Positions 20,907-44,707 of a stretch of DNA of 64,000 nucleotides are shown here, piece after piece. Every line of letters starts with the position of its first letter. The first letter of the stretch is position 1. Under the pieces are notes generated by a model. It saw nothing but the letters and a program-made list of their open reading frames with translations. It ran no database searches and was not told the origin of the DNA. The stretch lies in NCBI GenBank assembly GCA_963691705.1, contig OY829542.1, positions 62,706,427 through 62,770,426 on the forward strand, written 5' to 3'. The position numbers were made by a program, and so were the translations under genes. The stretch comes from Viola odorata (lineage: Eukaryota; Streptophyta; Magnoliopsida; Malpighiales; Violaceae).

Positions 20907-21130
20907 ATACACACTAGGGGTGTACACGGTCCGGTTCGGATCGGTTTTAGGCCTAGAACAGATCCGAACCGTAATTTACGGTTTTCATTTTTATGGAACC
21001 GGACCGCACCGGATCAATACGGTCCGGATCGGATCGGTTCCATTTTTCCCGGTTCGGATCGGTGCGGTTCCGGTTCCAATCCGGATTTTTTTTTTGTTTG
21101 GCCAAATTCATTATTTTCCAATGGGCCGGC

Positions 21131-21300
21131 CCATTAACCATTCCGCCAAGCCCACCAGCCCTTCCACTTTGCAAAATGAAATCTGCCTAGGAAAGGATTC
21201 GAACTCCTTCCCCTTTGCAAGTTTAGCCAATGCCTTGCCACTGGAGCAAAGTGTCTTATAGATATCTTTTGCAGATAAATATATTTATATATATATTTCC
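21131..21300. repeat. Left tRNA-like/SINE-like module, direct repeat with 27590-27800
   Basis: Shares long blocks with the right-hand module in the same orientation: CCAGCCCTTCCACTTTGCAAAA, GGATTCGAACTCCTTCCCC, TTTAGCCAATGCCTTGCCAC and TGGAGCAAAGTGTCTTA. Read on the minus strand it gives a B-box-like GAGTTCGAATCC and an A-box-like CAGTGGCAAGGCATTGG, as in tRNA-derived SINE heads. It does not fold as a complete tRNA in any obvious way. Confidence 0.6.
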
Positions 21301-21327
21301 GGTTTTAAATTTCTTTTGCCACTTGAA

Positions 21328-24300
21328 CAATTTCAAACTTTTAGTCATCTATAATATATTTATAAATGTAAGTTAATTGAATCATTTGTTTTGTTTTATT
21401 ATCATCTTAAATACTAGAAAGAGTAACTTTGAATTCTTCTTTTTAATTGTAAAACAATTTCAAACTTTTATTCATCTATACTCTATTTATAAATGTAAGT
21501 TAATTGAATCATTTGTTTTGTTTTATTATCATCTTAAATACTAGAAAGAGTAACTTTGAATTCTTATTTTTAATTGTAAAACAATTTCAAACTTTTAGTC
21601 ATCTATAATATATTTATAAATGTAAGTTAATTGAATCATTTGTTTTGTTTTATTATCATCTTAAATACTAGAAAGAGTAACTTTGAATTCTTCTTTTTAA
21701 TTGTAAAACAATTTCAAACTTTTATTCATCTATACTCTATTTATAAATGTAAGTTAATTGAATCATTTGTTTTGTTTTATTATCATCTTAAATACTAAAA
21801 AGAGTAACTTTGAATTCTTATTTTTAATTGTAAAACAATTTCAAACTTTTAGTCATCTATAATATATTTATAAATGTAAGTTAATTGAATCATTTGTTTT
21901 GTTTTATTATCATCTTAAATACTAGAAAGAGTAACTTTGAATTCTTCTTTTTAATTGTAAAACAATTTCAAACTTTTATTCATCTATACTCTATTTATAA
22001 ATGTAAGTTAATTGAATCATTTGTTTTGTTTTATTATCATCTTAAATACTAGAAAGAGTAACTTTGAATTCTTCTTTTTAATTGTAAAACAATTTTAAAC
22101 TTTTAGTCATCTATAATATATTTATAAATGTAAGTTAATTGAATCATTTGTTTTGTTTTATTATCATCTTAAATACTAGAAAGAGTAACTTTGAATTCTT
22201 CTTTTTAATTGTAAAACAATTTCAAACTTTTATTCATCTATACTCTATTTATAAATGTAAGTTAATTGAATCATTTGTTTTGTTTTATTATCATCTTAAA
22301 TACTAGAAAGAGTAACTTTGAATTCTTCTTTTTAATTGTAAAACAATTTCAAACTTTTAGTCATCTATAATATATTTATAAATGTAAGTTAATTGAATCA
22401 TTTGTTTTGTTTTATTATCATCTTAAATACTAGAAATAGTAACTTTGAATTCTTCTTTTTAATTGTAAAACAATTTCAAACTTTTATTCATCTATACTCT
22501 ATTTATAAATGTAAGTTAATTGAATCATTTGTTTTGTTTTATTATCATCTTAAATACTAGAAAGAGTAACTTTGAATTCTTCTTTTTAATTGTAAAACAA
22601 TTTCAAACTTTTAGTCATCTATAATATATTTATAAATGTAAGTTAATTGAATCATTTGTTTTGTTTTATTATCATCTTAAATACTAGAAAGAGTAACTTT
22701 GAATTCTTCTTTTTAATTGTAAAACAATTTCAAACTTTTATTCATCTATACTCTATTTATAAATGTAAGTTAATTGAATCATTTGTTTTGTTTTATTATC
22801 ATCTTAAATACTAGAAAGAGTAACTTTGAATTCTTCTTTTTAATTGTAAAATAATTTCAAACTTTTAGTCATCTATAATATATTTATAAATGTAAGTTAA
22901 TTGAATCATTTGTTTTGTTTTATTATCATCTTAAATACTAGAAAGAGTAACTTTGAATTCTTCTTTTTAATTGTAAAACAATTTCAAACTTTTATTCATC
23001 TATACTCTATTTATAAATGTAAGTTAATTGAATCATTTGTTTTGTTTTATTATCATCTTAAATACTAGAAAGAGTAACTTTGAATTCTTATTTTTAATTG
23101 TAAAACAATTTCAAACTTTTAGTCATCTATAATATATTTATAAATGTAAGTTAATTGAATCATTTGTTTTGTTTTATTATCATCTTAAATACTAGAAAGA
23201 GTAACTTTGAATTCTTCTTTTTAATTGTAAAACAATTTCAAACTTTTATTCATCTATACTCTATTTATAAATGTAAGTTAATTGAATCATTTGTTTTGTT
23301 TTATTATCATCTTAAATACTAAAAAGAGTAACTTTGAATTCTTATTTTTAATTGTAAAACAATTTCAAACTTTTAGTCATCTATAATATATTTATAAATG
23401 TAAGTTAATTGAATCATTTGTTTTGTTTTATTATCATCTTAAATACTAGAAAGAGTAACTTTGAATTCTTCTTTTTAATTGTAAAACAATTTCAAACTTT
23501 TAGTCATCTATAATATATTTATAAATGTAAGTTAATTGAATCATTTGTTTTGTTTTATTATCATCTTAAATACTAGAAAGAGTAACTTTGAATTCTTCTT
23601 TTTAATTGTAAAACAATTTCAAACTTTTATTCATCTATACTCTATTTATAAATGTAAGTTAATTGAATCATTTGTTTTGTTTTATTATCATCTTAAATAC
23701 TAAAAAGAGTAACTTTGAATTCTTATTTTTAATTGTAAAACAATTTCAAACTTTTAGTCATCTATAATATATTTATAAATGTAAGTTAATTGAATCATTT
23801 GTTTTGTTTTATTATCATCTTAAATACTAGAAAGAGTAACTTTGAATTCTTCTTTTTAATTGTAAAACAATTTCAAACTTTTATTCATCTATACTCTATT
23901 TATAAATGTAAGTTAATTGAATCATTTGTTTTGTTTTATTATCATCTTAAATACTAGAAAGAGTAACTTTGAATTCTTCTTTTTAATTGTAAAACAATTT
24001 TAAACTTTTAGTCATCTATAATATATTTATAAATGTAAGTTAATTGAATCATTTGTTTTGTTTTATTATCATCTTAAATACTAGAAAGAGTAACTTTGAA
24101 TTCTTCTTTTTAATTGTAAAACAATTTCAAACTTTTATTCATCTATACTCTATTTATAAATGTAAGTTAATTGAATCATTTGTTTTGTTTTATTATCATC
24201 TTAAATACTAGAAAGAGTAACTTTGAATTCTTCTTTTTAATTGTAAAACAATTTCAAACTTTTAGTCATCTATAATATATTTATAAATGTAAGTTAATTG

Positions 24301-27300
24301 AATCATTTGTTTTGTTTTATTATCATCTTAAATACTAGAAATAGTAACTTTGAATTCTTCTTTTTAATTGTAAAACAATTTCAAACTTTTATTCATCTAT
24401 ACTCTATTTATAAATGTAAGTTAATTGAATCATTTGTTTTGTTTTATTATCATCTTAAATACTAGAAAGAGTAACTTTGAATTCTTCTTTTTAATTGTAA
24501 AACAATTTCAAACTTTTATTCATCTATACTCTATTTATAAATGTAAGTTAATTGAATCATTTGTTTTGTTTTATTATCATCTTAAATACTAAAAAGAGTA
24601 ACTTTGAATTCTTATTTTTAATTGTAAAACAATTTCAAACTTTTAGTCATCTATAATATATTTATAAATGTAAGTTAATTGAATCATTTGTTTTGTTTTA
24701 TTATCATCTTAAATACTAGAAAGAGTAACTTTGAATTCTTCTTTTTAATTGTAAAACAATTTCAAACTTTTATTCATCTATACTCTATTTATAAATGTAA
24801 GTTAATTGAATCATTTGTTTTGTTTTATTATCATCTTAAATACTAGAAAGAGTAACTTTGAATTCTTCTTTTTAATTGTAAAACAATTTTAAACTTTTAG
24901 TCATCTATAATATATTTATAAATGTAAGTTAATTGAATCATTTGTTTTGTTTTATTATCATCTTAAATACTAGAAAGAGTAACTTTGAATTCTTCTTTTT
25001 AATTGTAAAACAATTTCAAACTTTTATTCATCTATACTCTATTTATAAATGTAAGTTAATTGAATCATTTGTTTTGTTTTATTATCATCTTAAATACTAA
25101 AAAGAGTAACTTTGAATTCTTATTTTTAATTGTAAAACAATTTCAAACTTTTATTCATCTATACTCTATTTATAAATGTAAGTTAATTGAATCATTTGTT
25201 TTGTTTTATTATCATCTTAAATACTAGAAAGAGTAACTTTGAATTCTTCTTTTTAATTGTAAAACAATTTCAAACTTTTATTCATCTATACTCTATTTAT
25301 AAATGTAAGTTAATTGAATCATTTGTTTTGTTTTATTATCATCTTAAATACTAGAAATAGTAACTTTGAATTCTTCTTTTTAATTGTAAAACAATTTCAA
25401 ACTTTTATTCATCTATACTCTATTTATAAATGTTAGTTAATTGAATCATTTGTTTTGTTTTATTATCATCTTAAATACTAGAAAGAGTAACTTTGAATTC
25501 TTCTTTTTAATTGTAAAACAATTTCAAACTTTTAGTCATCTATAATATATTTATAAATGTAAGTTAATTGAATCATTTGTTTTGTTTTATTATCATCTTA
25601 AATACTAGAAAGAGTAACTTTGAATTCTTCTTTTTAATTGTAAAATAATTTCAAACTTTTAGTCATCTATAATATATTTATAAATGTAAGTTAATTGAAT
25701 CATTTGTTTTGTTTTATTATCATCTTAAATACTAGAAAGAGTAACTTTGAATTCTTCTTTTTAATTGTAAAACAATTTCAAACTTTTATTCATCTATACT
25801 CTATTTATAAATGTAAGTTAATTGAATCATTTGTTTTGTTTTATTATCATCTTAAATACTAAAAAGAGTAACTTTGAATTCTTATTTTTAATTGTAAAAC
25901 AATTTCAAACTTTTAGTCATCTATAATATATTTATAAATGTAAGTTAATTGAATCATTTGTTTTGTTTTATTATCATCTTAAATACTAGAAAGAGTAACT
26001 TTGAATTCTTCTTTTTAATTGTAAAACAATTTCAAACTTTTATTCATCTATACTCTATTTATAAATGTAAGTTAATTGAATCATTTGTTTTGTTTTATTA
26101 TCATCTTAAATACTAGAAAGAGTAACTTTGAATTCTTCTTTTTAATTGTAAAACAATTTTAAACTTTTAGTCATCTATAATATATTTATAAATGTAAGTT
26201 AATTGAATCATTTGTTTTGTTTTATTATCATCTTAAATACTAGAAAGAGTAACTTTGAATTCTTCTTTTTAATTGTAAAACAATTTCAAACTTTTATTCA
26301 TCTATACTCTATTTATAAATGTAAGTTAATTGAATCATTTGTTTTGTTTTATTATCATCTTAAATACTAGAAAGAGTAACTTTGAATTCTTCTTTTTAAT
26401 TGTAAAACAATTTCAAACTTTTAGTCATCTATAATATATTTATAAATGTAAGTTAATTGAATCATTTGTTTTGTTTTATTATCATCTTAAATACTAGAAA
26501 TAGTAACTTTGAATTCTTCTTTTTAATTGTAAAACAATTTCAAACTTTTATTCATCTATACTCTATTTATAAATGTAAGTTAATTGAATCATTTGTTTTG
26601 TTTTATTATCATCTTAAATACTAGAAAGAGTAACTTTGAATTCTTCTTTTTAATTGTAAAACAATTTCAAACTTTTAGTCATCTATAATATATTTATAAA
26701 TGTAAGTTAATTGAATCATTTGTTTTGTTTTATTATCATCTTAAATACTAGAAAGAGTAACTTTGAATTCTTCTTTTTAATTGTAAAACAATTTCAAACT
26801 TTTATTCATCTATACTCTATTTATAAATGTAAGTTAATTGAATCATTTGTTTTGTTTTATTATCATCTTAAATACTAGAAAGAGTAACTTTGAATTCTTC
26901 TTTTTAATTGTAAAATAATTTCAAACTTTTAGTCATCTATAATATATTTATAAATGTAAGTTAATTGAATCATTTGTTTTGTTTTATTATCATCTTAAAT
27001 ACTAGAAAGAGTAACTTTGAATTCTTCTTTTTAATTGTAAAATAATTTCAAACTTTTAGTCATCTATAATATATTTATAAATGTAAGTTAATTGAATCAT
27101 TTGTTTTGTTTTATTATCATCTTAAATACTAGAAAGAGTAACTTTGAATTCTTCTTTTTAATTGTAAAACAATTTCAAACTTTTAGTCATCTATAATATA
27201 TTTATAAATGTAAGTTAATTGAATCATTTGTTTTGTTTTATTATCATCTTAAATACTAGAAAGAGTAACTTTGAATTCTTCTTTTTAATTGTAAAACAAT

Positions 27301-27503
27301 TTCAAACTTTTATTCATCTATACTCTATTTATAAATGTAAGTTAATTGAATCATTTGTTTTGTTTTATTATCATCTTAAATACTAGAAAGAGTAACTTTG
27401 AATTCTTCTTTTTAATAGTAAAACAATTTCAAACTTTTATTCATCTATACTCTATTTATAAATGTAAGTTAATTGAATCATTTGTTTTGTTTTATTATCA
27501 TCT
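21328..27503. repeat. 127-bp satellite array, 48.6 units, two alternating monomer types
   Basis: The phrase CAATTTCAAACTTTTA recurs at exactly 127-bp steps from 21328 to 27424 (48 steps, no net indel). Two monomer types differ at three linked positions: type A has AGTCATCTATAATATAT and type B has ATTCATCTATACTCTAT. I count 24 A and 25 B units, mostly in strict A-B alternation (254-bp dimers), with breaks at units 17-18 (AA), 25-26 (BB), 30-33 (BBBB), 34-35, 45-47 and 48-49. Further private variants (ACTAAAAAG, GAAATAG, AATTTTAAAC, AATAATTTC, TTCTTATTT) mark longer higher-order blocks. It is AT-rich and has no coding potential. Confidence 0.95.
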
Positions 27504-27589
27504 AATTTTAAAAACTATAAATTCAGTAATTATAGCTAAAAATTAAAATTTACATTTCTACAAATTAAACATATTAATTAATAATAGCC

Positions 27590-27800
27590 CTCCAAGCCCA
27601 CCAGCCCGCCAAGCCCACCAAGCCCACCAGGCACCAGCCCTTCCACTTTGCAAAATAAAATTTGCCTAGGAAGGGATTCGAACTCCTTCCCCTTTGCAAG
27701 TTTAGCCAATGCCTTGCCACTGGAGCAAAGTGTCTTATTGATATGTTTTGTAGATATATATATTTTTATATATAAATATATATATATATTTCCGGTTCTA
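27590..27800. repeat. Right tRNA-like/SINE-like module, direct repeat with 21131-21300
   Basis: Same text and orientation as the left module, through TGTCTTATTGATATGTTTTGTAGATATATA and on to TTTCCGGTT. It is preceded by a small AAGCCCACC repeat (27595-27635). The shared extent is roughly 170-180 bp, so the satellite array lies between two direct repeats inside the hAT-like element. Confidence 0.6.
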
Positions 27801-27984
27801 ACGGTTCTACGGTTCGGATCGGATTTTTTAGAGCCGAAGAACCGGACCGAACCGGAACAATACGGTTCGGACCGGTTCGATTTTTTTTTCAAAAAAAAAA
27901 AAAAAAACCACCGGATCGGTCCAATTCGGGCCGGTTCCGGATCGGGCCGGTTCTTGTACACCCCTAATACACACGGTACGCACG

Positions 27985-28032: not shown

Positions 28033-30436
28033 ATGTTCTCTTCTTCAACTCGCGTCATCACTCCAAAAAATCTACTCTTGGTATCCGTATCTGCTTCTCA
28101 AGCTTTGTCAAAGCAATCATCTTTCACTTACGCGCAAATCTTTCTTCCATCTCTGCAGAAATCACCAGTTTCTGTGGTTTCTGGATCTAACAAGTCAGGG
28201 GTTTTAAGACCTGTACTAACTCCTTTCCGATTAAACTCTACCATGGCTAGCCAATCTCAATCAGTTCACGACTTCACTGTAAAGGTAGTTTCATTTGTTT
28301 GTTTGCTTTTTTTAGTGCTTTGGGCATCTGGGTTTTGTTTAATTTGAGTTATGTAGAAGAAAGGGTGCTTTGAGGTTGGTGGAGATTGGTGTGTTTTCAT
28401 TTGCCACTGTTATTTAGCGGTTGAAATTCATGAAGTGGGATTTGTATCGAGTCTAAAAATTTATTCTAGACTTGTATTGAGTCTAAAAACTGATGCTTTA
28501 ATGGTTAGTCTATTTGCTGCTTCTTTAATCATCAAACCTACACAGGGTTTTCAATTCAAGTTATTTGTCTTATTTGTTTGGATGCATATGCAATGAATTC
28601 ATTGGAGATTTTCTTTCACATGTGAGCTGTGTTGGATTTTGGACAACAGGACTAGTGCGTTAGTACCGGTTGTACACATTAGGGACATATGGACGCATAT
28701 GTTATTTGTGTACCGTCATATGATATATTGTTAACATAAGGTTAATTGGACCAATTTGATGATCTAATAAAGTTAAGGGGTCCAATCGTCTAATTGAAAT
28801 AGTGTGTAGGGGGTTAATACGGTTATTGTGCAGATTCCGAATTAATTCCGAATTGTTGATGGACCGATTCGGAATTAAAGAAAAACTCTAAGGACGGAAT
28901 TGATCCCTGGTGGAATTGTTTTATATAAATAAAGCACTCTCCATTGTTTCTCATTAAGGAAAAACTAAGGAAAGAAACGTAGAAACTGTGAGGGAGAGTG
29001 TGTTGGGAGATCCATTGAACCCCAAAGCAATCATCCATCAGAAGATCAACACTCCGGGTTTTCTACATCAGATCATGGCATCATCATCAGGTACGCTTCC
29101 GCTGCTCCGGATCTAATTCATGCAATTAACTGAGATTGATTCGTTCCTTGGGATGTTATCTCCCATACGGTTCCAACAAGCTGTTGATACTCTCTTGGTC
29201 TACTAATAGGAATTTGACTAATGATTTTAAGCTGATTGCTTGCAGGATGCTAGGGGAAATGATGTGGATCTTAGCATTTACAAGGGGAAGGTCCTTCTGA
29301 TTGTTAATGTTGCTTCACAATGGTATTACTTTGCTTCTGTTCTTCTTGTGCGTGAAGGGGAAATATAAAATATGTTTTCTGGCTAGGATATAGGGATTAG
29401 ACATATGAGGAAGAATTCCCATCTTCATTAGTAATATTTTGCCATTAAATTTTCTTGGTGCTGATCAAATCATCTTTAACATCCTATTGCATTTTCATTT
29501 TGATGGAAAACCTAAGCAAGACTAAGCTCTTCATTCAAGTTATTCGATTTTTCTTTTCCATATACCATTGCCATTAAGCTTATGTTTTGTTTTTTCTGCA
29601 GTGGTTTGACCAACGCTAACTACACTGAACTGGCTCAGTTATACCAGAAGTACAAGGATCAAGGTTTGTTATTAATACTTCTTTTGGTTTGGTTTTATTG
29701 GAACTTTAGAGGACGAATACGAGTGCAATATTTATCTGATACTAACTCCAGCAGTGGAAGCATATATAGCTGAACTCGTATCGCATTTACTTTCCCTCCT
29801 TGTGATTATTATGTCTGCTTTCTATTACATGTGTTTCACTCCGTTACAAGTTACTTAACATACATCTTGCGTATCACTTGTGAAGACCGTTAGGGATAGA
29901 CCTCCTTGAGCATGATCAATCATTTTGAGAAATTGTGACTTTGCTGGAGTGTTATTTCTTTTATTTTATACTTCTTTTTGTGTTGATGCAGGTTTGGAGA
30001 TCCTGGCTTTTCCATGCAATCAGTTTGGAAATCAGGAGCCAGGTAGCAACGAGGAGATCATGGAGTTTGCTTGTACTCGCTTTAAGGCTGAGTATCCCAT
30101 CTTTGATAAGGTAGGCGCTGCAGTTGCTTTTGTGGTGCTTTCAACATTTTCTGCGAAAATTTGTGTCTGATGCTGCTCTTATACCACCTAATTGTCTCGT
30201 GATCTCAAACCTAAAGATGATGTAATGATGTTATGCTATGTCGATCTTTACTTAGTTTGGTTGTTCTCTTGGTATAGGTTGATGTGAATGGTTCAAACGC
30301 TGCTCCGATTTACAAGTTCTTGAAGTCCAGCAAAGGTGGCCTCTTCGGTGATGGTATTAAGTGGAATTTCTCCAAGTTCCTGGTAGACAAAGATGGGCAT
30401 GTTGTGGAGCGTTATGCTCCCACCACTTCCCCTTGA
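28033..30436 (+). CDS. GPX: Plant glutathione peroxidase (GPX6-like, thioredoxin-dependent type), five coding exons
   Basis: Reduces hydrogen peroxide and lipid hydroperoxides; plant GPXs mainly use thioredoxin. Coding exons: 28033-28284, 29246-29322, 29602-29663, 29992-30110, 30278-30436, all with GT-AG borders. About 70 N-terminal residues, rich in Ser/Arg/Leu, look like a mitochondrial or plastid transit peptide, before [14 protein letters not shown]. The catalytic Cys codon is split across exons 2/3 (NVASQ-C-GLTN). The Gln is in [12 protein letters not shown] and the Trp in [15 protein letters not shown]. The family usually ends SPLSIEKD-KKLL; here TGA (30434-30436) follows TTSP. The final exon encoding NIKKLLGVE is still present at 30527-30559 but is out of reach, costing about a dozen C-terminal residues away from the active site. 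Intron 1 holds a solo LTR. A polyadenylation signal AATAAA lies near 30617. Confidence 0.85.
28243..28245 (+). promoter_or_regulatory. Second in-frame ATG of GPX, strong context
   Basis: The context CTACCATGGC is near-optimal for plants, while the first ATG at 28033 has a weak GCAAATGTTC context. Initiation here would give a protein beginning MASQSQ, the usual cytosolic GPX start, without the transit peptide. Confidence 0.45.
28630..29178 (+). mobile_element. Solo LTR (549 bp) in GPX intron 1
   Basis: It starts TGTTGGA and ends TCCAACA, with the 5-bp target duplication AGCTG on both sides (28625-28629 and 29179-29183). A TATA-like TTTATATAAATAAAGC near 28920 sits mid-LTR. There is no internal domain, so it is a recombination-derived solo LTR, probably of a Ty1-copia element by its TGTTGG start. 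It contains an ATGG...CATCATCAGGTAC stretch with a possible splice donor at its 3' part. Confidence 0.85.
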
Positions 30437-30526
30437 GGTATATAAACCTTTCTGGTCTCAACACACATTCCTTTTAGACACTAGCAACCACATCTGAACT
30501 CGAATGTCTGATCTCATTCTATGCAG

Positions 30527-30559
30527 AAAAACATCAAGAAACTACTCGGGGTCGAGTGA
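30527..30559 (+). pseudogene. Orphaned last exon of GPX
   Basis: It follows an ATGCAG acceptor and would encode KNIKKLLGVE plus a stop, the standard C-terminus of plant GPX. The upstream exon now ends in TGA, so this piece is probably transcribed as 3' UTR, whether spliced or not. Confidence 0.6.
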
Positions 30560-30639
30560 ATGCAAAAGGAAGAAGGGTTAATGGAGCAGCTACCAGCTGC
30601 TGGAATAATGAAGCTCAATAAAGTGTAATAATAAAACCT

Positions 30640-32160
30640 TTCTATAACTTTTGTTATGAATATGCGTAGTCATGTTAAAATGGATAATGTATGTCCAGTT
30701 CAGTAGTTGTACGTGTGAAGTTTACTAAAATAATCCTGTTTTCAACTACTGTCTTGCAGCTTATTCTACAACATTAAATCCTAATCTTGCGCCAAAGAAT
30801 AAAAATAATCTTCCTGAATGAATTAGTTGCTGTTTTGTATGTATGAACACTAATTAAGATAATGATTGGTTAAAGTCTAAAGAAATACTCCATTTTTTTT
30901 AATAAACAGTAGATTTACAAGTACGGTTATTAAGATTAGCTGTTGAACGCAGGAGCCAGTTTAACTAACGGCTGAACGCAAACCCAACCCAATCCATTGT
31001 CAGCAGACATGAACTCTCATATCTGTTTAATCACTTGCATAACGTGTAATCCAAGTCGAATGATACGTAATTTGAAAGACAATTTTAAAAGAAAAAAAGA
31101 GGAAATGTCAGTTAATTGTGATTCACGTTACGGACGGAGTACTATTTTCTATTCAAATCACTGTATGCCTCCCTCCTCCTCTTTTTTCCTTTCCTTTCTA
31201 GATCCAATTTCCAGAAAGCAACCTCCATCAACACTGTAAAAGAACCTACACATAACCACTTTAACTTGGATTTTGCACCTTTGAATTTGTTCTTAAAAGC
31301 TAATCAACTATGGCTTCCTCCCTCCCTCCCATCTCTTTTCCTCCCAATCCACACTTCATGTGAACTCCCATCTCTTTTCCTCCCAATCCACACTTCATGT
31401 GAAGAGTAAGAAGGTCTTTTGTATAAATATCCAGAAATTTCAACCAAAAAAGCATGAAAAATGGACAGACGGAAAATAAAGGTTTGACCTTTGTGCTTTC
31501 TTTTAACAGAGTTGTATTGGAATCTTAATAAACAATAATATTTATAATGCTATTCGGGAGGAATAGGCAAAAGGAATAGACAATAATTACAAGCTATTGG
31601 TGCAAATTTATGAAACTGACCCGTGTCTCCTTCTTCATATCCTCTCTTCCTCTTCCCGATCTAGGATTTTTTTTCCTCTTCTCCTCTTCCCGCGAACTCG
31701 ATACCTACAAGAGAAAATGAAGTCGAGTTAGTCCAAGATTTAATTAAAAACCCATTGATTCATATTTCTGTCCCAAATATTCGAATCCATTAGTAAAAAA
31801 TTAGTAAAAATATTAATATTTTTAACATTACTCTTTAGAAAAAATACCATTAGTACGTGATTTTTTATTTCCTGAAATTCAAGATTGGTTTTAATTACTC
31901 TTTAGGATGTGATTTTTTTTTTGAAATTCAAGATTTGGCATGATATGGAATTAATTCCAGGAAGGATATACTCTTTGTATATATTTGTATTTCTGGTGGA
32001 ATAGAAAATCAAGCCAGGATATACTCTTTGCCTTATGAATAGTATACTGGAATTAATTCCATATCAATCTAATTAATTCCCGTCTATAAGTAAATGAATT
32101 TCAAATCAATCTAATTGATTTCATATCAATCTAATTAATTCCAATAGCTTTAATTACGTC
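30640..32160. other. Intergenic between GPX and neprosin gene 1
   Basis: AT-rich, no gene. It contains a local 40-bp tandem duplication at about 31342-31402 (TCCCATCTCTTTTCCTCCCA) absent from copy 2, and the unoccupied insertion site TCCAT (31224-31228) of the element present in copy 2. Confidence 0.7.
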
Positions 32161-32168
32161 TATATATA
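32161..32168 (+). promoter_or_regulatory. TATA box, neprosin gene 1
   Basis: TATATATA about 200 bp upstream of the ATG; a 5' UTR intron (donor GTGAGT at 32248, acceptor CTTTCAG ending 32353) lies between. The same layout is kept in copy 2. Confidence 0.5.
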
Positions 32169-32362
32169 TTTCATAATAGAGCGTATACACGATCATATTT
32201 TCTTTCAGCAGCAAAGTTTCAATTTTGCAAAGAAAAGCAAAGCATTGGTGAGTTTTTTGTTGTTTCTTATAATTAGTAGTGTGTATTCTTATAAATATAC
32301 CATATATGTAGTCTCGATTAATTTACTGACGTGGGCATGTTTTGCTCTTTCAGGGTTTGATC

Positions 32363-33981
32363 ATGGCTTTAAGGGATGCTTTACTTCTTGTGTTGGTATG
32401 GATGCTGGTTACCCAAATTGGAGTTGGAGCCCGGAATTGGAATTGGTCTACCAATCAAGAGTTGGAAGTAGAGAAAGAGAGTAAACTTATGACCAAGCCA
32501 CCAATATTTCAAACTCAATCCAACAGCAAACCTAGCAAACCTGGCTATCATGTGGGTATAATTATGTAATTTGCTTCGTTAATTAGTGTTGTTATACACA
32601 CTTAGCTTCAATTATTTAGTATGTTAATTAAGCCATAAATGATTATCATGTATTAATCAGTGGGCGATACTTCGGACAAATAATCTAAATAAAAAATACA
32701 CTGGGGCTAGTATGTCCACGAGCGTGTACAACCCACAAGTGAGTGGTGAGCAATATAGTGCTTGTCGAGTGAAGGTCCAAAATGGTGAAGAATATATCGA
32801 GGCTGGATGGATGGTAAGTTATCGTTTAATTAACATAATTCTTGTTAAAATTGCTAGATGCATATAATGTATACTAGTATTTTCTTTGTAAGAAATTAAT
32901 TATAGCTATGTATATATGTATATTGGATGTTGATTTTTAAAATAAATCGAAATTAGGGATGATTCTTGCAAATTCAATATCACTTTTGTTAGCTCGAAAT
33001 TTTATTTCCATCCTGTGAGATTAACACTACTACCCTAAATGGCATAGATATTCAAAAGTTTAGACGCTATTTAATTAGTTTCTTTTACTTAGCAGATTAT
33101 ATAGTGTCATACATATCACATATTTTTAGTTTTTTTATGTTTTTTCCCTTCTTCCTAATTACAGGTGAACCAAGCTCTGTTTAATGACACCCGAACTTAT
33201 TTCTATATATACACAAAGGTAAGTAATTAATTTGTAACATTTTATTGATAAAAAAGTAATAATAATTTGTAACATTTTGATATCATCATACTATCCACTA
33301 TGGTTTTAATTTGATTGTGACAATTGCTTGCACTAATATTTAATTCATGTAAATTACTAGACAAAGACGGTGGAGTGTTTCAATAATTTATGTTCTGGGT
33401 TTGTACTCGTACGAGAAGATATCATACCAGGTTCTGTCTACCATAACATTTCAGTATCAGGGCGGTCTACTTGTGAAGATTCATTCTCAATTGAAAAGGT
33501 ATTTTATTTTATAGTTATAATATGAAATTGTTATTACATAATTTATTTACTTTTAGGATTGGAAATAACATAATGTTGTTACAAAATCCAGGATCAATCA
33601 AATGGGAATTGGTATCTTATATCGGGAGCGAGCAAAGACATTATTGGATGGTGGCCGAAGAATATATTTTCCGGCGGGTTAGCAGACGCAGCAAATTATA
33701 TTGATTGGGGAGGAGAAGTTTATAGTCCTTTAAATCAGCCAAGTCCGGCGATGGGGGCCGGTCTAAAGTTTTTCTTCAGAGATACCGCCATAGATGCATA
33801 TTGTAGGATAATTGCCGTCTCCAATGAAAACTATGTGATTGAGAATGCTGCTGTTGCCGGTACCGAAGTATTTAGAGACACACCTAGGAACTTTTATGAT
33901 GTCCGCGACATGGGTATTGTCGATGCTATTTCTTTCCGTACGATTTTGTTTGGAGGTCCCGGTCAATTTACTGAAAAATGA
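32363..33981 (+). CDS. Neprosin (DUF239) domain protein, gene 1, five exons
   Basis: Neprosins are secreted plant glutamic peptidases that cut after proline; most family members are uncharacterised. Exons: 32363-32551, 32661-32813, 33165-33218, 33361-33498, 33592-33981, all in phase 0, giving 307 residues. Residues 1-23 (MALRDALLLVLVWMLVTQIG) are a signal peptide. Then comes a short EL-EKESKLMTKPP segment typical of the start of the activation peptide. The catalytic domain follows: VYNPQVSGEQYSA, IEAGWMV, LCSGFVLV, GNWYLISG, IGWWPKNIFSG, WGGEVYSPLNQPSPAMG and FGGPG at the C-terminus. IEAGWMV and WGGEVYSP contain the Glu residues most likely to be catalytic. The protein is shorter than the usual 400 or so because most of the activation peptide exon(s) is missing: exon 1 passes directly from GYH to WAILRT. 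Expression is untested. Confidence 0.8.
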
Positions 33982-34435
33982 TGTAATAATCATCCTTAAT
34001 TTTGTTCTTTTTGGAAATGAATAACTTCAAAAAGTACTTTAAACTAACGAGGATTACCTTTTTACCTACTACTATATTTTCTATTACAAGTCGAACAAGT
34101 GAATTAAAAGAATTTATTTGCGAAAAATAGAAAAATAAAATAGAAAAAATTTACTTACGAGCTGAATTTTCCTACACAAGTTTGGCTCATGAAAAACTTT
34201 TATCGAAACGAAATAAGGATTGAGGTTTCTAGCAATTAATTAGTTGATCATGCGATTCAATTTAAAGGGCGATGTTTAATTACTATCCTATTCCAATTCA
34301 TGCATTTAATAAAAAAAGTGGATTAAGTGAATTTATTAAAGTGAGTTATTTATTTAATTTAAGTTCGAACTAAATTAATTATTAATCTAAATTATTTCTC
34401 ATGCAAACGGATTAATTTGAATCCTACCACTTATA
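33982..34435. other. Intergenic, AT-rich, no gene seen
   Basis: Downstream flank of neprosin gene 1. It is present almost unchanged after gene 2 (42743-43200). Confidence 0.6.
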
Positions 34436-34544
34436 AATAATCATGCATATTTCTGTAGCTTTGTCATGTACGCCATGACTGCTTCATCAATAAAATTGTC
34501 TGCTTATTAAAAAAAAAAAAAATAAAAAAAAATAATCATGCATA
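34436..34544 (+). mobile_element. Short poly(A) retroposon insertion with 14-bp target duplications
   Basis: AATAATCATGCATA occurs at 34436-34449 and 34531-34544. Between them is an 81-bp insert ending in an A-rich tail, with an AATAAA signal about 20 bases before the tail. The other duplication copy has the word once and no insert. This is the signature of L1-type target-primed insertion, of a severely 5'-truncated LINE, SINE or cellular mRNA 3' end. Confidence 0.8.
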
Positions 34545-34693
34545 TAATAAATATGATAAATAAAACAACTAAAGAATGCATCTCCTCAAATGGATACCTA
34601 CATCACAAATTGATTAGTAGCAACAAATAATAATAAGAAAAATAAATACTGCAAATAATTATTACAAATAAATTACAAATCTCCAAATAAATA

Positions 34694-34953
34694 CTCCCTC
34701 CGGTCTTTAAAGAATGTCTTCCTCGCATCCCAATATTCAGTAGGGAACGCATATTGAGGAAGCCGGATGACTCACTATTTGACCCCAAAAAAATCCGTAC
34801 TTTTTTTCTAACGTACGTTAATCCTTAACGTACTTCCCAGAAAAAATTAGGGGCAAAATTGTCCCAAATAATAGGTCTGTCGGCCGTTTTAAGATACGTG
34901 TCGAAACAGTAAAAGCAAAAGCTAAAGCGACGTTCTTTCGAGACCGGAGGGAG
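34694..34953. mobile_element. Stowaway-type MITE (260 bp)
   Basis: Ends CTCCCTCCGGTC and GACCGGAGGGAG with a TA on each side (34692-34693 and 34954-34955), the Tc1/mariner signature. The corresponding site in copy 2 (about 43360) reads AATAAATATAAAC without the element. It shares internal text GATGACTCACTATTTGACCC with the MITE at 57734. Confidence 0.9.
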
Positions 34954-34959
34954 TATAAA

Positions 34960-35600
34960 CTAACAAGAAGATGATCAAAGCCCTCATTCGAGCTCCGCAA
35001 TCGAGAGTAGCATATCTAACTCCTCGTCGAACTCCATCAAATTTGTCGAGTATTATTACGACGAACATGCAAATAAAACATATGAGTAAGCGTTGATAAG
35101 AAACACACGAATAAATTTCAAATGATCAAATATTAACAGCAAAATGGAATCACCTTACCTATTAAAATTCATGTTTTGGTCTTGCCATTACTGCTTTTCT
35201 TTTACTCTCGTTCCAATCAAATAAGCCGCTCCAATTTTTAATTAATTGTGATATTCAACAAATCAACACAGCAGCCTCGACCTTTCCATTCCCTTTACTT
35301 CTCTTTTTTGTTCTCTTTCTTTTTTCTTTGTTTCTCTTTTCGTTTTTTTTTAATTAGTAACAATAATAATAAATAAATAAATATTACAAATAAATAAAAA
35401 TAGGCCTAGATGATTTATTCCCGTGCAAGCAAATTAATTCTAACAATTCTAAATAAGAACGCATACAAATAGATAATAAATTAACAATTCTAATAAATGA
35501 GGAGTAAGTTTTAAAGCTCGAGTTTAGAAAATTGTCACCAATATCGAAGTTGGCGAAACATTTAATAGGGTCAGTAATCGCGAACTCATGTCTTAATTAG
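34960..35600. other. Intergenic, no gene seen
   Basis: AT-rich flank upstream of the neprosin 3 fragments. The stretch 35411-35600 recurs at 37327-37517 and 43818-44005. Confidence 0.6.
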
Positions 35601-35731
35601 TGGGCGATACTTCGGTTACTAGGGTTGCCATGGTCATGAGCGTGTACAACCCACAAGTGAGTGGTGACCAATATAGTGCTTGTCAAGTGAAGGTCCAAAA
35701 TGGTCAAAAATATATCGAGGCCGGATGCATG
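35601..35731 (+). pseudogene. Neprosin exon-2 fragment (neprosin 3, first partial copy)
   Basis: Bounded by TTAATTAG and a GTAAG donor. In one frame it encodes SVYNPQVSGDQYSACQVKVQ and IEAGCM; the usual Trp of AGWM is Cys. The 5' part is out of frame relative to genes 1 and 2. No exon 1 is present, and the intron after it is cut by the foldback element after about 30 bases. Confidence 0.7.
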
Positions 35732-35765
35732 GTAAGTTATCGTTTAATTAACATAATTCTTGTTA

Positions 35766-37326
35766 AGTACCATTATTTTATTATTATTTCTGAAAAATAA
35801 TATAATTAATTTTTAATTTTTAATTTTTTTATCTAATTAATTTTTAAAAAATTCAGAAAATAATTCAAACTTTTTATTAAAAAATATAATTAATTTAAAA
35901 ATTCATAAAATAAATATAATTAATTAAATAAACTCAAAAAAACAATGTAATTAATTTAAAAATTAAGAAAAATAATATAATCAATTTTTAATTTTTTTAT
36001 CTAATTAATTTTTAAAAAATTCAGAAAATAATTTAATTTTTTTATTAAAAAATATAATTAATTTAAAAATTCAGAAAATAAATATAATTAATTAAATAAA
36101 CTATAAAAAATGTAATTAATTTAAAAATTCAAAAAAATAATATAATTAAATATAATGTAATTAATTTATAAAAAATAATGTAATTAATTTAAAATTTTAG
36201 AAAAATAATATAATTAATTTATATTTTTTATTTAATTATCTAATTAATTTTTAAAAAATTCAGAAAATAATTTAATTTTTTTAGCTAATTTAGAAATTCA
36301 GAAAATAAATATAATTAAATAAATAAACTCAAAAAAATAATGTAATTAATTTATACAAAATAATGTAATTAATTTAAAATTTTAGAAAATTAATATAATT
36401 AATTTTTTAATTTTTAATTTTATTATCTCTTATTTACTTTATTTTCACTTCTCCTCCTCTTTTCAAAAATATCTCAAAAATAGTTTTATTAATTATTTCA
36501 AAAAATAACATAAATTAAGATTTCTTTTTGCAGCATAGGAGAGATGATGAAGAGAGGGCAACGGTGTTGGGTTTGGTTGGCGATCTGGGCAGTGGAGTGT
36601 GGCAGGCGAGATGAGTGGCCATGTAAAGGTGGCTCATTTTTTTGTGTATGGACATGAAATAAAATTAATTACACTGTTTACATTATTTACATTTGACTGG
36701 GGAAAGAAAGAAAGAAAAAAAGAAGAAATAAAAGAAAGAAAGAAATAGAAAGAAGAAAAGAAAAAAGGAGGAGAAGTGAAAATAAATGAAATAAGAGATA
36801 ATAAAAGAAAAAAAATAATTATATTATTTTTCTGAATTTTTAAATTAATTACATTGCATTTTATGAATTTGTTGACTAATTATATTTTTTTCTGAAATTT
36901 TAAATTAATTACATTACTTTTTATAAATTAATTATATATTTTTTCTAATTTTTTAATTAATTATATTTTTTCTGAATTTTTAAATTAATTACACTATTTT
37001 TTATAAATTAATTACATTATTTTCTGAATTTTTAAAAATAATTATATTATTTTCTGAAGTTTTAAAATTAATTAGAAATAAAACTGATTTTTTAAAAATT
37101 AATTAGATAAAAAAATAAAAAAATAAAAAATTAATTATATTATTTTTCAGAAATAATAATAAAATAATGGTACTTAACGGTCGTCTAACGCCGTTAGGGT
37201 CGATTTAGACGACGGGACCTGGGGTGGATAACGGCGCTAACGGTTAGGACCCAATTGAACCAAATTCGAAAAGTGGGACTGACTAAAATGAAAATAATAA
37301 CGACAGGGACCCCGGGGTGCCTTTTC
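35766..37326. mobile_element. AT-rich foldback element (Mutator-like), left end truncated
   Basis: 35766-36500 and about 36700-37171 are imperfect inverted copies (GTACCATTATTTTATTATTA at one end, its complement at the other), folding around a centre near 36600. The right side continues with a GC-richer terminus ending GGGGTGCCTTTTCCCG; the matching left terminus is absent. Interior phrases such as ATAATGTAATTAATTTAAAA are shared with the Mutator-like element at 10987-12275, so the two are probably related. No ORF is credible. Confidence 0.65.
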
Positions 37327-37648: not shown

Positions 37649-38040
37649 GTAAGTTATCGTTTAATTAACATAATTCTTGTTAAAATTCCTACTTGATGAT
37701 TATAATGTATACTTTTTTCTTTGTAAGAAATTAATTATAGTTACGTTTTGAGTAACTTATATATGTATATTGGATGTTGATTTTTAAAATAAATCCAAAT
37801 TAGGGATGATTCTTGCAAATTCAGTATCACTTTTGTTAGCTCAAATCAGAAATTTTATTTCCATCGTGTGAGAATAAACGCTATTTAATTAGTTTCTTTT
37901 ACTTTATAGATTATATAGTGTCATACATATCACATATTTTGATGGAAAACCTAAGCAAGACTAAGCTCTTCATTCAAGTTATTCGATTTTTCTTTTCCAT
38001 ATACCATTGCCATTAAGCTTATGTTTTGGTTTTTCTGCAG

Positions 38041-38998
38041 TGGTTTGACCAACGCTAACTACACTGAACTGGCTCAGTTATACCAGAAGTACAAGGATCA
38101 AGGTTTGTTATTAATACTTCTTTTGGTTTGGTTTTATTGGAACTTTAGAGGACGAATACGAGTGCAATATTTATCTGACACTAACTCCAGCAGTGGAAGC
38201 ATATATAGCTGAACTCGTATCGCATTTACTTTCCCTCCTTGTGATTATTATGTATGCTTTCTATTACATGTGTTTCACTCCGTTACAAGTTACTTAACAT
38301 ACATCTTGCGTATCACTTGTGAAGACCGTTAGGGATAGACCTCCTTGAGCATGATCAATCATTTTGAGAAATTGTGACTTTGCTGGAGTGTTATTTCTTT
38401 TATTTTATACTTCTTTTTGTGTTGATGCAGGTTTGGAGATCCTGGCTTTTCCATGCAATCAGTTTGGAAATCAGGAGCCAGGTAGCAACGAGGAGATCAT
38501 GGAGTTTGCTTGTACTCGCTTTAAGGCTGAGTATCCCATCTTTGATAAGGTAGGCGCTGCAGTTGCTTTTGTGGTGCTTTCAACATTTTCTGCGAAAATT
38601 TGTGTCTGATGCTGCTCTTATACCACCTAATTGTCTCGTTATCTCAAACCTAAAGATGATGTAATGATGTTATGCTATGTCGATCTTTACTTAGTTTGGT
38701 TGTTCTCTTGGTATAGGTTGATGTGAATGGTTCAAACGCTGCTCCGATTTACAAGTTCTTGAAGTCCAGCAAAGGTGGCCTCTTCGGTGATGGTATTAAG
38801 TGGAATTTCTCCAAGTTCCTGGTAGACAAAGATGGGCATGTTGTGGAGCGTTATGCTCCCACCACTTCCCCTTGAGGTATATAAACCTTTCTGGTCTCAA
38901 CACACATTCCTTTTAGACACTAGCAACCACATCTGAACTCGAATGTCTGATCTCATTCTATGCAGAAAAACATCAAGAAACTACTCGGGGTCGAGTGA
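38041..38998 (+). pseudogene. 5'-truncated glutathione peroxidase copy
   Basis: Contains only exons 3-5 (38041-38102, 38431-38549, 38717-38875) and the orphan last exon (38966-38998), almost identical to copy 1. Exons 1 and 2, the start codon and most of the catalytic Cys codon (TG of TGT) are absent because the duplication began in intron 2. It carries the same TGA after TTSP (38873-38875), so that stop predates the duplication. It has no promoter of its own. Confidence 0.9.
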
Positions 38999-39656
38999 AT
39001 GCAAAAGGAAGAAGGGTTAATGGAGCAGCTACCAGCTGCTGGAATAATGAAGCTCAATAAAGTGTAATAATAAAACCTTTCTATAACTTTTGTTATGAAT
39101 ATGCGTAGTCATGTTAAAATGGATAATGTATGTCCAGTTCAGTAGTTGTACGTGTGAAGTTTACTAAAATAATCCTGTTTTCAACTACTGTCTTGCAACT
39201 TATTCTACAACATTGCGCCAAAGAAAATAAAAATAATCTTCCTGAATGAATTAGTTGCTGTTTTGTATGTATGAACACTAATTAAGATAATGATTGGTTA
39301 AAGTCTAAAGAAATACTCCATTTTTTTTAATAAACAGTAGATTTACAAGTACGGTTATTAAGATTAGTTGTTGAACGCAGGAGCCAGTTTAACTAACGGC
39401 TGAACGCAAACCCAACCCAATCCATTGTCAGCAGACATGAACTCTCATTTCTGTTTAATCACTTGCATAACGTGTAATCCAAGTCGAATGATACGTAATT
39501 TGAAAGACAATTTTAAAAGAAAAAAAGAGGAAATGTCAGTTAATTGTGATTCACGTTACGGACGGAGTACTATTTTCTATTCAAATCACTGTATGCCTCC
39601 CTCCTCCTCTTTTTTCCTTTCCTTTCTAGATCCAATTTCCAGAAAGCAACCTCCAT

Positions 39657-40010
39657 TATAGAAACTACCAGAAGAGATTGAATAGGATAATATATTTATG
39701 AATAGGAAAGATACAAGAAGGCTTGGCTTGAGAGCCAAGCTTGAGAGACTACATTGAAGATGATTAGATGAGTGATGTTTGAATGGATTGCTTATTTGAT
39801 TACATTCAGAAGCTATCTATTTATACATAATAAACCTTACTATTCTAACATATTTACAGCTAATGGATCTTGACGAATTGGTGAAGATATGGTGGAGATA
39901 TGTTTGGTGCCATATCTCCACAATGGCTGCGAGCATGCTACTGCTTTTCTTCACGTGGTGGTACTGTGCATGGCTGACTAATGTGCATGATGGGCTTGAT
40001 AGCCTTAATA
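39657..40010 (-). mobile_element. 354-bp solo-LTR-like insertion in copy 2
   Basis: Flanked by the 5-bp duplication TCCAT (39652-39656 and 40011-40015); copy 1 has a single TCCAT and no insert (31224-31228). On the minus strand it starts TATTAAGGCTATCAAGCCC, has a TATAAATAGATAGC TATA-like site, and ends TAGTTTCTATA. That is the layout of a small LTR, but with TA...TA rather than TG...CA termini. Confidence 0.7.
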
Positions 40011-41158
40011 TCCATCAACACTGTAAAAGAACCTACACATAACCACTTTAACTTGGATTTTGCACCTTTGAATTTGTTCTTAAAAGCTAATCAACTATGG
40101 CTTCCTCCCTCCCTCCCATCTCTTTTCCTCCCAATCCACACTTCATGTGAAGAGTAAGAAGGTCTTTTGTATAAATATCCAGAAATTTCAACCAAAAAAG
40201 CATGAAAAATGGACAGACGGAAAATAAAGGTTTGACCTTTGTGCTTTCTTTTAACAGAGTTGTATTGGAATCTTAATAAACAATAATAGTTATAATGCTA
40301 TTCGGGAGGAATAGGCAAAAGGAATAGACAATAATTACAAGCTATTGGTGCAAATTTATGAAACTGACCCGTGTTTCCTTCTTCATATCCTCTCTTCCTT
40401 TTCCCGATCTAGGGTTTTTCTTCCTCTTCTCCTCTTCCCGCGAACTCGATACCTACAAAAAAAAAATGAAGTCGAGTTAGTCCAAGATTTAATTAAAAAC
40501 CCATTGATTCATATTTCTGTCCCAAATATTCGAATCCATTAGTAAAAAATTAGTAAAAATATTAATATTTTTAACATTACTCTTTAGAAAAAATACCATA
40601 GTACGTGATTTTTTATTTCCTGAAATTCAAGATTGGTTTTAATTACTTGTAGTATGTGATTTTTTTTTTTTGAAATTCAAGATTTGACTTTTATTGGAAT
40701 TAATTAGATTGATATGAAATCAATTAGATTGATTTGGCATGATATGGAATTAATTCAAGTATCCTATTTAAGGATATACTCTTTGTATATATTTGTATTT
40801 CTGGTGGAATAGAAAATCAAGCCAGGATATACATATACTCTTTGCCTTATGAATAGTATACTGGAATTAATTCCATATCAATCTAATTAATTCCCGTCTA
40901 TAAGTAAATGAATTTCAAATCAATCTAATTAATTCCAATAGCTTTAATTACGTCTATATATATATTTCATAATAGAGCGTATACACGATCATATTTTCTT
41001 TCAGCAGCAAGGTTTCAATTTTGCAAAGAAAAGCAAAGCATTGGTGAGTTTTTTGTTGTTTCTTATAATTAGTAGTGTGTATTCTTATAAATATACCATA
41101 TATGTAGTCTCGATTAATTTACTGACGTGGGCATGCTTTGCTCTTTCAGGGTTTGATC

Positions 41159-42742
41159 ATGGCTTTAAGGGATGCTTTACTTCTTGTGTTGGTATGGATG
41201 CTGGTTACCCAAATTGGAGTTGGAGCCCGGAATTGGAATTGGTCTACCAATCAAGAGTTGGAAGAGAAAGAGCGTAAACTTATGACCAAGCCACCAATAT
41301 TTCAAACTCAATCCAACAGCAAACCTAGCAAACCTGGCTATCATGTGGGTATAATTATGTAATTTGCTTCGTTAATTAGTGTTGTTATACACACTTAGCT
41401 TCAATTATTTAGTATGTTAATTAAGCCATAAATGATTATCATGTATTAATCAGTGGGCGATACTTCGGACAAATAATCTAAATAAAAAATACACTGGGGC
41501 TAGCATGTCCACGAGCGTGTACAACCCACAAGTAAGTGGTGAGCAATATAGTGCTTGTCGAGTGAAGGTCCAAAATGGTGAAGAATATATCGAGGTTGGA
41601 TGGATGGTAAGTTATCGTTTAATTAACATAATTCTTGTTAAAATTGCTAGATGCATATAATGTATACTATTTTCTTTGTAAGAAATTAATTATAGCTATG
41701 TATAAATGTATATTGGATGTTTCTTGCAAATTCAATATCACTTTTGTTAGCTCGAAATTTTATTTCCATCCTGTGAGAATAACACTACTACCCTAAATGG
41801 CATAGATATTCAAAAGTTTAGACGCTATTTAATTAGTTTCTTTTACTTTGCAGATTATATAGTGTCATACATATCACATATTTTTAGTTTTTTTTTAATG
41901 TTTTTTCCCTTCTTCCTAATTACAGGTGAACCAAGCTCTGTTTAATGACACCCTAACTTATTTCTATATATACACAAAGGTAAGTAATTAATTTGTAACA
42001 TTTTATTGATAAAAAAGTAATAATAATTTGTAACATTTTGATATCATCATACTATCCACTATGGTTTTAATTTGATTGTGACAATTGCTTGCACTAATAT
42101 TTAATTCATGTAAATTACTAGACAAAGACGGTGGAGTGTTTCAATAATTTATGTTCTGGGTTTGTACTCGTACGAGAAGATATCATACCAGGTTCTGTCT
42201 ACAATAGCATTTCAGTATCAGGGCGGTCTATTATTGAAGATTCATTCTCAATTGAAAAGGTATTTTATTTTATAGTTATAATATGAAATTGTTATTACAT
42301 AATTTATTTACTTTTAGGATTGGAAATAACATAATGTTGTTACAAAATCCAGGATCAATCAAATGGGAATTGGTATCTTATATCGGGAGCGAGCAAAGAC
42401 ATTATTGGATGGTGGCCGAAGAATATATTTTCCGGCGGGTTAGCAGACGCAGCAAATTATATTGATTGGGGAGGAGAAGTTTATAGTCCTTTAAATCAGC
42501 CAAGTCCGGCGATGGGGGCCGGTCTAAAGTTTTTCTTCAGCGATTTCGCCATAGATGCATATTGTAGGATGATTACCGTCTCCAATGAAAACTATGTGAT
42601 TGAGAATGCTGCTGTTGCTGGTACCGAAGTATTTAGAGACACACCTAGGAACTTTTATGATGTCCGCGATATGGGTATTGTCGAAGCTATTTTTTCCCGT
42701 ACGATTTTGTTTGGAGGTCCCGGTCAATTTACTGAAAAATAA
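41159..42742 (+). CDS. Neprosin (DUF239) domain protein, gene 2, five exons
   Basis: Recent paralogue of gene 1 with the same architecture: exons 41159-41344, 41454-41606, 41926-41979, 42122-42259, 42353-42742, giving 306 residues. It has the same signal peptide and the same missing activation-peptide segment. Differences include loss of one codon in the ELE-EKE region, IEVGWMV in place of IEAGWMV, and several substitutions in the last 60 residues (FSDFAIDAYCRMITV). The frame is intact to TAA. TATA (from 40955) and the 5' UTR intron (41044-41149) are kept. Substitutions without frame loss are compatible with both copies being functional, but expression is unknown. Confidence 0.8.
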
Positions 42743-44005
42743 TGTAATAATCATCCTTAATTTTGTTCTTTTTGGACATGAATAACTTCAAAAAGTACTT
42801 TAAACTAACGAGGATGACCTTTTTACCTACTACTATATTTTCTATTATAAGTCGAACAAGTGAATCAAAAGAATTTATTTGCGAAAAATAGAAAAATAAA
42901 ATAGAAAAAATTTACTTACGAGCTGAATTTTCCTACACAAGTTTGGCTCATGAAAAACTTTTATCGAAACGAAATAAGGATTGAGGTTTCTAGCAATTAA
43001 TTAGTTGATCATGCGATTCAATTTAAAGGGCGATGTTTAATTACTATCCTATTCCAATTTATGCATTTAATAAAAAAAGTGGATTAAGTGAATTTATTAA
43101 AGTGAGTTATTTATTTAATTTAAGTTCGAACTAAATTAATTAGAGTGAATTATTAATCTAAATTATTTCTCATGCAAACGGATTAATTTGAATCCTAACA
43201 CTTATAAATAATCATGCATATGATAAATAAAACAACTAAAGAATGCATCTCCTCAAATGGATACCTGCATCACAGATTGATTAGTAGCAACAAATAATAA
43301 TAAGAAAAATAAATACTGCAAATAATTATTACAAATAAATTACAAATCTCCAAATAAATATAAACTAACAAGAAGATGATCAAAGCCCTCATTCGAGCTC
43401 CGCAATCGAGAGTAGCACATCTAACTCCTCGTCGAACTCTATCAAATTTGTCGATCATTATTGTGACGAACATGCAAATAAAACATACGAGTAAACGTTG
43501 ATAAGGAACACACGAATAAATTTCAAATGATCAAATATTAACAGCAAAATGGAATCACCTTAGCCATTAAAGTTCATGTTTTGGTCTTGCCATTACTGCT
43601 TTTCTTTTACTCTCGTTCCAATCAAATAAGCCGCTCCAATTTTTAATTAATTGTGATATTCAACAAATCAACACAGCAGCCTCGACCTTTCCATTCCCTT
43701 TACTTCTCTTTTTTATTCTCTTTCTTTTTTCTTTGTTTCTCTTTTCGTTTTTTTTTAATTAGTAACAATAATAATAAATAAATAAATATTACAAATAAAT
43801 AAAAATAGGCCTAGATGATTTATTCCCGTGCAAGCAAATTAATTCTAACAATTCTAAATAAGAACGCATACAAATAGATAATAAATTAACAATTCTAATA
43901 AATGAGGAGTAAATTTTAAAGCTCAAGTTTAGAAAATTATCACCAATATCGAAGTTGGCGAAACATTTAATCGGGACGGTAATCGCGAACTCATGTCTTA
44001 ATCAG
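42743..44005. other. Intergenic, no gene seen
   Basis: Equivalent of 33982-35600 without the MITE and the retroposon. The unoccupied MITE site is at about 43360 and the unoccupied retroposon site at about 43207. Confidence 0.65.
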
Positions 44006-44707
44006 TGGGCGATACTTCGGTTACTAGGGCTGCCATGGTCACGAGTGTGTACAACCCACAAGTGAGTGGTGACCAATATAGTGCTTGTCGAGTGAAGGTC
44101 CAAAATGGTCAAGAATATATCGAGGCCGGATGGATGGTAAGTTATCGTTTAATTAACATAATTCTTGTTAAAATTCCTACTTGATGATTATAATGTATTC
44201 TTTTTTCTTTGTAAGAAATTAATTATAGTTACGTTTTGAGTAACTTATATATGTATATTGGATGTTGATTTTTAAAATAAATCCAAATTAGGGATGATTC
44301 TTGCAAATTCAGTATCACTTTTGTTAGCTCAAATCAGAAATTTTATTTCCATCGTGTGAGAATAAACGCTATTTAATTAGTTTCTTTTACTTTACAGATT
44401 ATATAGTGTCATACATATCACATATTTTTAGTTTTTTTTTATGTTTTTTCCCTTCTTCCTAATTACAGGTGAACCAAGCTTTGTTTAATGACACCCTAAC
44501 TCATCTCTATATATACACAAAGGTAAGTAATTAATTTGTAACATTTTCTTGATAAAAAAGGAATAATAATTTGTAACATTTTGATATTATCATACTATCC
44601 ACTATGGTTTTAATTTGATTGTGACAATTTCTTGCACTAATATTTAATTCATGTAAATTACTAGATAAAGACGGTGGAGTGTTTCAATAATTTATGCTCT
44701 GGGTTTG
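44006..44707 (+). pseudogene. Neprosin 3, broken (exons 2-4 only)
   Basis: Exons 44006-44136, 44469-44522 and 44665-44707. The last stops inside LCSGF where an LTR-like sequence (TGTTGGGAATATT) begins. No exon 1 or terminal exon is present, and the 5' part of exon 2 is out of frame with the rest. Confidence 0.8.

Follow-up and report, generated by a model that had tools for sequence, protein, structure and literature searches.

Does a cut-and-paste transposon carry satellite DNA to new places, or does the satellite grow where the transposon has landed? The question is raised by a 7,052-bp hAT element at positions 20915-27966 of the window, the whole 64-kb stretch of Viola odorata DNA that was analysed, which lies on contig C6 of a 699-Mb, 26-contig assembly. 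The original prediction left two possibilities side by side, a small element expanded in place or an element that moved with its array. The analysis makes it likely that the element, itself non-autonomous and with an internal tandem array, belongs to a hAT family that was active recently, and that arrays arrive with the element, after which some grow and some are lost.

Structure and surroundings of the window element

The element is flanked by a perfect 8-bp target site duplication, ATACACAC, at 20907-20914 and 27967-27974. Exact motif search placed the 12-bp terminal inverted repeat TAGGGGTGTACA at 20915-20926 on the plus strand and at 27955-27966 on the minus strand, and there are no further exact matches in the 64-kb window. 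Subterminal zones with CCGGTTCGG-like repeats occupy 20915-21130, a stretch that related copies have also, and 27790-27966. A direct repeat, termed D and absent from the original prediction, lies at 21143-21308 (left copy) and 27615-27801 (right copy); 157 of 166 aligned bases are identical, with 21 gap positions. The 127-bp tandem array extends over 21326-27503 (48.6 copies, 97% matches) and consists chiefly of two alternating unit types; blocks of as many as 10 units are duplicated in it. It is followed by a right spacer (27504-27590), which adjoins the array in most related copies and is absent from copy L055. The subterminal zones, both D copies, the array and the spacer are annotated on the plus strand. 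The termini, target duplication, motif-rich subterminal zones and 127-bp repeats named in the original prediction were thus all recovered.

The array has the long head-to-tail series of near-identical units that characterizes a satellite (48.6 here; 74.8 and more than 140 in other copies). With 7,052 bp the window copy exceeds the size of a MITE, an element that is small, usually a few hundred bp, and non-coding; array-less relatives of 470-590 bp would fit that size. No transposase was found within the window element. Both D copies hold a tRNA-like stretch recognized by eye, GGATTCGAACTCC, and D is possibly SINE-derived; a tRNA gene in D was considered and rejected, as ARAGORN finds none in the window.

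The insertion ends 59 bp before an ATG at 28033 of an open frame. A frame at 29925-30170 matches glutathione peroxidase (PF00255, 1e-14), and three other short frames tested there gave no match. The interval 28033-30436 is a probable glutathione peroxidase gene with 28033 as its inferred start, so that the large array adjoins a probable gene and may sit in its promoter region. Three other features of the window were recorded. A direct duplication in several pieces (29497-35766 and 37936-44171, 94.9-98.7% identity) takes in the 3' portion of this probable gene. A pair of 1.5-kb direct repeats at 45688-47232 and 51396-52928, 98.3% identical, encloses long open frames and resembles by eye a young LTR retrotransposon. 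A 116-bp unit occurs twice in perfect tandem at 63492-63727.

The genome-wide family and its transposase-bearing members

The TAGGGGTGTACA terminus has 831 and 785 occurrences in the genome, against 17 and 32 for the reversed pattern. Together with the identical 8-bp flanks described below, this count shows that the structure seen in the window is more than chance. Further copies were sought with a 254-bp array probe, which gave 229 matches; 39 of 44 candidates were scored, and counts are taken from the matches listed. Grouping these matches by eye yielded 31 places including the window, and the other 30 were retrieved as 31 stretches. A search with the right arm, in which the best 40 of 1160 candidates were scored, added 8 copies with an array and 3 without one, and also reached the far end of one large copy. 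The array-bearing copies were selected by similarity to the window copy and the candidates were scored in part, so the 39 array-bearing copies examined are the best-scoring ones rather than a census.

Both ends were read in 35 of these copies, and L064, L065, L068 and L074 were read at one terminus. The 8-bp duplication is perfect in 32 of the 35 and has one mismatch in two (L051 and the copy on contig C4); in L062 a GTAGGGG-like flank pair is offset by one base, without a clean duplication. All 35 insertion sites are different. The commonest layout is left end, D, array, spacer, D, right end; L063, L069, L076 and L078 have other sequence to the left of the array. The count of internal units in copies sharing the termini, proposed as a check in the original prediction, gave approximately 2 to 75 units in the array-bearing copies (maximum 74.8, median 5.8), apart from one, on contig C8, with at least 140 units, this being the number in its read part.

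Arm divergence was determined in 21 of the 39 copies, with left-arm lengths of 440-470 bp and without L061, L062 and L080. Mean pairwise divergence among these young copies is 1.9% in the left arm and 2.9% in the right arm; L059 (25/465 in the left arm) and L055 (45/392 in the right arm) are outliers. With a plant substitution rate near 7e-9 per site per year, these values suggest, as a rough guide, that the family was active within about 1-2 million years. The array-less L002, L003 and L007 have the same or nearly the same termini, perfect 8-bp duplications and main subterminal matches of about 67-77% similarity, and represent a wider set of related hAT elements.

In L069 and L076 a short first exon on the minus strand (MSTNDEGLN, followed by GTAAGT) was recognized by eye between the left end and the array, and in L069 a second exon as well. 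A search with the L069 interior identified two array-bearing loci, on contigs C7 and C4, with about 2.2 kb more in between. The C7 copy (45697551-45702802; 5,252 bp, of which 459 are unread) is flanked by the duplication CTTCCAAC and contains 10.0 array units, together with a frame that runs without interruption for 696 aa in the stretch retrieved and for 724 aa in the genome search. Domains above the cut-offs in this frame are of the hAT dimerisation (PF05699, 8.4e-30), hAT RNase-H-like (PF14372, 1.4e-24) and BED finger (zf-BED, 1.6e-05) types, and the frame matches Hermes chains at about 1e-13. The C4 copy, 4,952 bp long and read in part, carries 8.1 units, the duplication ACAATCTG/ACAATTTG with one mismatch, and a stop-free transposase frame with 98% identity to that of C7. 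Genome-wide, five stop-free frames including that of C7 are at least 98% identical; two of them belong to the array-bearing C7 and C4 copies, and the other three are at C6:23.41, C6:23.42 and C1:37.36 Mb. The region C6:23409135-23423282 contains two stop-free transposase frames, 99% identical to that of C7, about 10 kb apart in opposite orientation.

The assignment to the hAT superfamily, predicted from the window, holds: the 8-bp target duplication and the short, exact 12-bp inverted termini are joined by a hAT transposase in the C7 relative, which has identical termini and an 8-bp duplication of its own. The transposase of such intact relatives would recognize the termini and subterminal repeats and move the whole unit; the empty sites described below attest past insertion only.

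The position of the C7 array also bears on where the satellite came from. One alternative is that a satellite already present in the genome was captured several times, by one element after another; capture is the explanation proposed for miDNA4 (PMC12628747) and a quinoa CACTA element (PMC8978399). For the present family repeated capture is hardly credible: most copies have identical junctions on both sides, and in the C7 copy, with its transposase, the array occupies the equivalent position. Neither termini from different elements nor a free-standing array without a family terminus, either of which would have contradicted the original prediction, was seen in the 39 best-scoring loci, four of which were read at one end. 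The array of C7 begins upstream of the start codon predicted for the transposase, at a distance of about 250-290 bp and on the promoter side, the exons and promoter being by-eye predictions. The array may have existed first beside the transposase promoter of the full-length element, and the D-array-D form may have arisen by joining such an array to a left end that already had D. A bolder reading is possible though doubtful, namely that the 127-bp array is a native promoter-side module of the transposase gene in a currently competent hAT, and that the family seeds satellites by setting down a few units between D repeats at each jump, which then grow to tens of kb even beside genes or are erased by D x D recombination.

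Transport of the array and its probable growth and loss

Joined flanks with one target duplication kept were prepared for the 35 copies, and those of three (L050, L059 and L066), picked as repetitive-looking by eye, were used to search for empty sites. Among the 40 matches listed, element-free matches across the join numbered 34 for L050, 4 for L059 and 2 for L066. Those of L050 are mostly 200 of 200 bases and up to 95%, those of L059 reach 97%, and those of L066 are weaker (85-86%, gapped). The presence of empty sites elsewhere indicates that these three copies were inserted with their arrays, and the dispersal of 39 copies, 35 of them at demonstrably distinct sites, indicates transport of the array by the element. 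The array travels with the element, and the empty sites confirm insertion. The element is therefore a vehicle for satellite DNA, as had been suspected, on the strength of the 39 dispersed array-bearing copies and of the empty sites for three of them, one weaker. The two possibilities posed at the outset resolve into one account: copies arrive with an array, and some then appear to grow. The first stage of the proposed course of events is observed directly: short-array copies are scattered over many positions, every one of them marked by a separate 8-bp duplication, and empty sites were found for copies that had landed in other repeats.

Two further copies carry very large arrays. The C6 neighbour (L043/L044; C6:62657883-62668243) comprises 10,361 bp with 74.8 units and the duplication ATTGTATA, and lies about 59 kb from the window copy in opposite orientation. 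Two of the largest arrays are thus about 59 kb apart on C6, though they are not closest kin by their arms; the neighbour was rejected as closest relative, the window arms being nearer to L048, L047 and L056. From terminus to terminus the C8 copy (C8:32583739-32631451) measures 47,713 bp; it is flanked on either side by ATCCTTGA, and its left terminus has one change. The part read amounts to 20,065 bp, of which the array takes up 17,802 bp (140 units), interrupted by a foreign fragment of about 1.4 kb that is LINE-like by eye. In the otherwise unread middle a 501-bp probe proved to be array, and the remaining 27.6 kb may hold further insertions. Were C8:32584601-32612749 array throughout, the copy would by extrapolation contain up to about 360 units.

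Unit variants were compared in 31 of the 39 elements, without L074-L081. Private variants, defined as used more than once and absent from the other 30, make up 12 of 48 units in the window copy, 9 of 74 in the C6 neighbour, 52 of 131 in the examined part of C8 and 10 of 29 in L060. Repeated blocks were compared with 200 shuffles each in four large arrays (window, C6 neighbour, C8 and L060, without L054). The longest exactly repeated block is 10 units in the window against a shuffle maximum of 8, 24 against 8 in the C6 neighbour and 14 against 6 in C8; in L060 it is 5 against 7 and thus not above the shuffles. This is the pattern to be expected if no fewer than three arrays (window, C6 neighbour and C8) had grown independently of one another by duplicating blocks. 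In view of their private variants and duplicated blocks the biggest arrays, that of the window included, probably grew after insertion; the few private variants of the C6 neighbour count against this in its case. A few arrays would have lengthened, blocks being duplicated through unequal exchange or slippage during replication, until they reached sizes of about 30, 49, 75 and over 140 units; other copies would lose the array through D x D recombination.

For the window copy, growth in place is the reading we infer. Cut-and-paste movement leaves no donor, and private variants would also be expected had the array grown elsewhere and then moved, so growth at this site is probable rather than proved. 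That the element reached about 7 kb elsewhere and moved here long, transposition of long arrays explaining the large copies, we regard as unlikely. With the donor removed, no copy with the same variants need persist, and the long copies have intact or almost intact termini and target duplications. Against this reading, most copies are short, the five largest arrays have just 2-5 variants in common pairwise, the neighbour 59 kb away is not the closest by arms, and no two copies with an identical long array were found among those examined.

Tandem arrays are a known source of assembly errors. Nevertheless, it is very improbable that the long arrays are such errors: every one of them has its own variants, the C8 array contains the foreign fragment, and short arrays are widespread with clean duplications.

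Loss of the array is indicated by L071 (590 bp) and L072 (585 bp), which are array-less and have a single D and perfect 8-bp duplications. The 5' part of this single D has the young left-type state and the 3' part young right-type states, whereas older copies have neither. Both elements look like deletions by recombination between the two D copies flanking an array. A third array-less copy, L073 (470 bp), lacks part of D too. Short non-autonomous hAT elements are common, and array-less copies of about 590 bp into which the array was inserted later would be the simplest ancestor. That order of events is improbable in view of the chimeric D of L071 and L072, and a single-D copy with ancestral states throughout was not found among the three array-less copies examined. 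Array-less copies were accordingly disfavoured as ancestors, and deletion from array-bearing copies is preferred.

Comparison with known transposon-borne satellites

Satellites riding on transposons are already known, and the feeding of satellites by transposon-borne arrays is an accepted kind of origin (PMC9659126, PMC12628747). In Tetris, a foldback transposon of Drosophila virilis, internal tandem repeats expand into TIR-220 arrays of up to 66 copies (PMC4079207). Like the window element, Tetris is a non-autonomous DNA transposon whose internal repeats expand to arrays. Its repeats lie inside the terminal inverted repeats of a foldback element, whereas the present element is a hAT with a central array between two D copies, and its large arrays are in beta-heterochromatin (PMC4079207), whereas one large array here is beside a probable gene.

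The Tc1/mariner MITE miDNA4 of Xenopus tropicalis holds its satellite as a single monomer or in variable copies, alongside short direct repeats thought to promote change (PMC9659126, PMC12628747). It shares with the present family an element-borne satellite of variable copy number and flanking direct repeats. These are of 5 bp or more in miDNA4, whereas D is about 167 bp long and seems to have given rise to deletion products; the superfamily differs, and in the hAT family a transposase-bearing relative also has the array. A CACTA element of Chenopodium quinoa contains a 171-bp satellite array of 32.5 monomers (5,550 bp), dispersed on chromosomes (PMC8978399), and is likewise a plant cut-and-paste transposon with a satellite array within one element. 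There the array is near the 3' end and four scaffolds are named; here the element is a hAT whose array adjoins the transposase gene at its promoter end, with 39 copies examined and a size series. The central tandem repeats of Helitron/DINE elements are also transposon-borne arrays feeding satellites. Helitrons are rolling-circle elements, and their amplification models do not apply to hAT.

No description of a hAT element with an internal satellite array was found among titles and abstract openings, in which subscription journals are thinly covered, and the word hAT does not occur in the text of PMC12628747. As far as the literature was searched, four features are new: that the carrier is a hAT, that the array is placed next to the transposase gene, that D is paired and seems to have produced deletions, and that the copies form a size series.

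The birth and scattering of satellites have often been argued from worn remnants. In the present case one genome and one apparently young family show a full-length element with a short array, composites with a short array or with one of 19-75 units, a copy of 47.7 kb and products of deletion that have no array, and most of these stages have legible insertion sites. By comparing accessions one could measure how arrays grow, how D mediates their loss and how they affect the genes nearby, and the window copy, just upstream of a probable glutathione peroxidase gene, is a natural test of the effect of a promoter-region satellite on expression.
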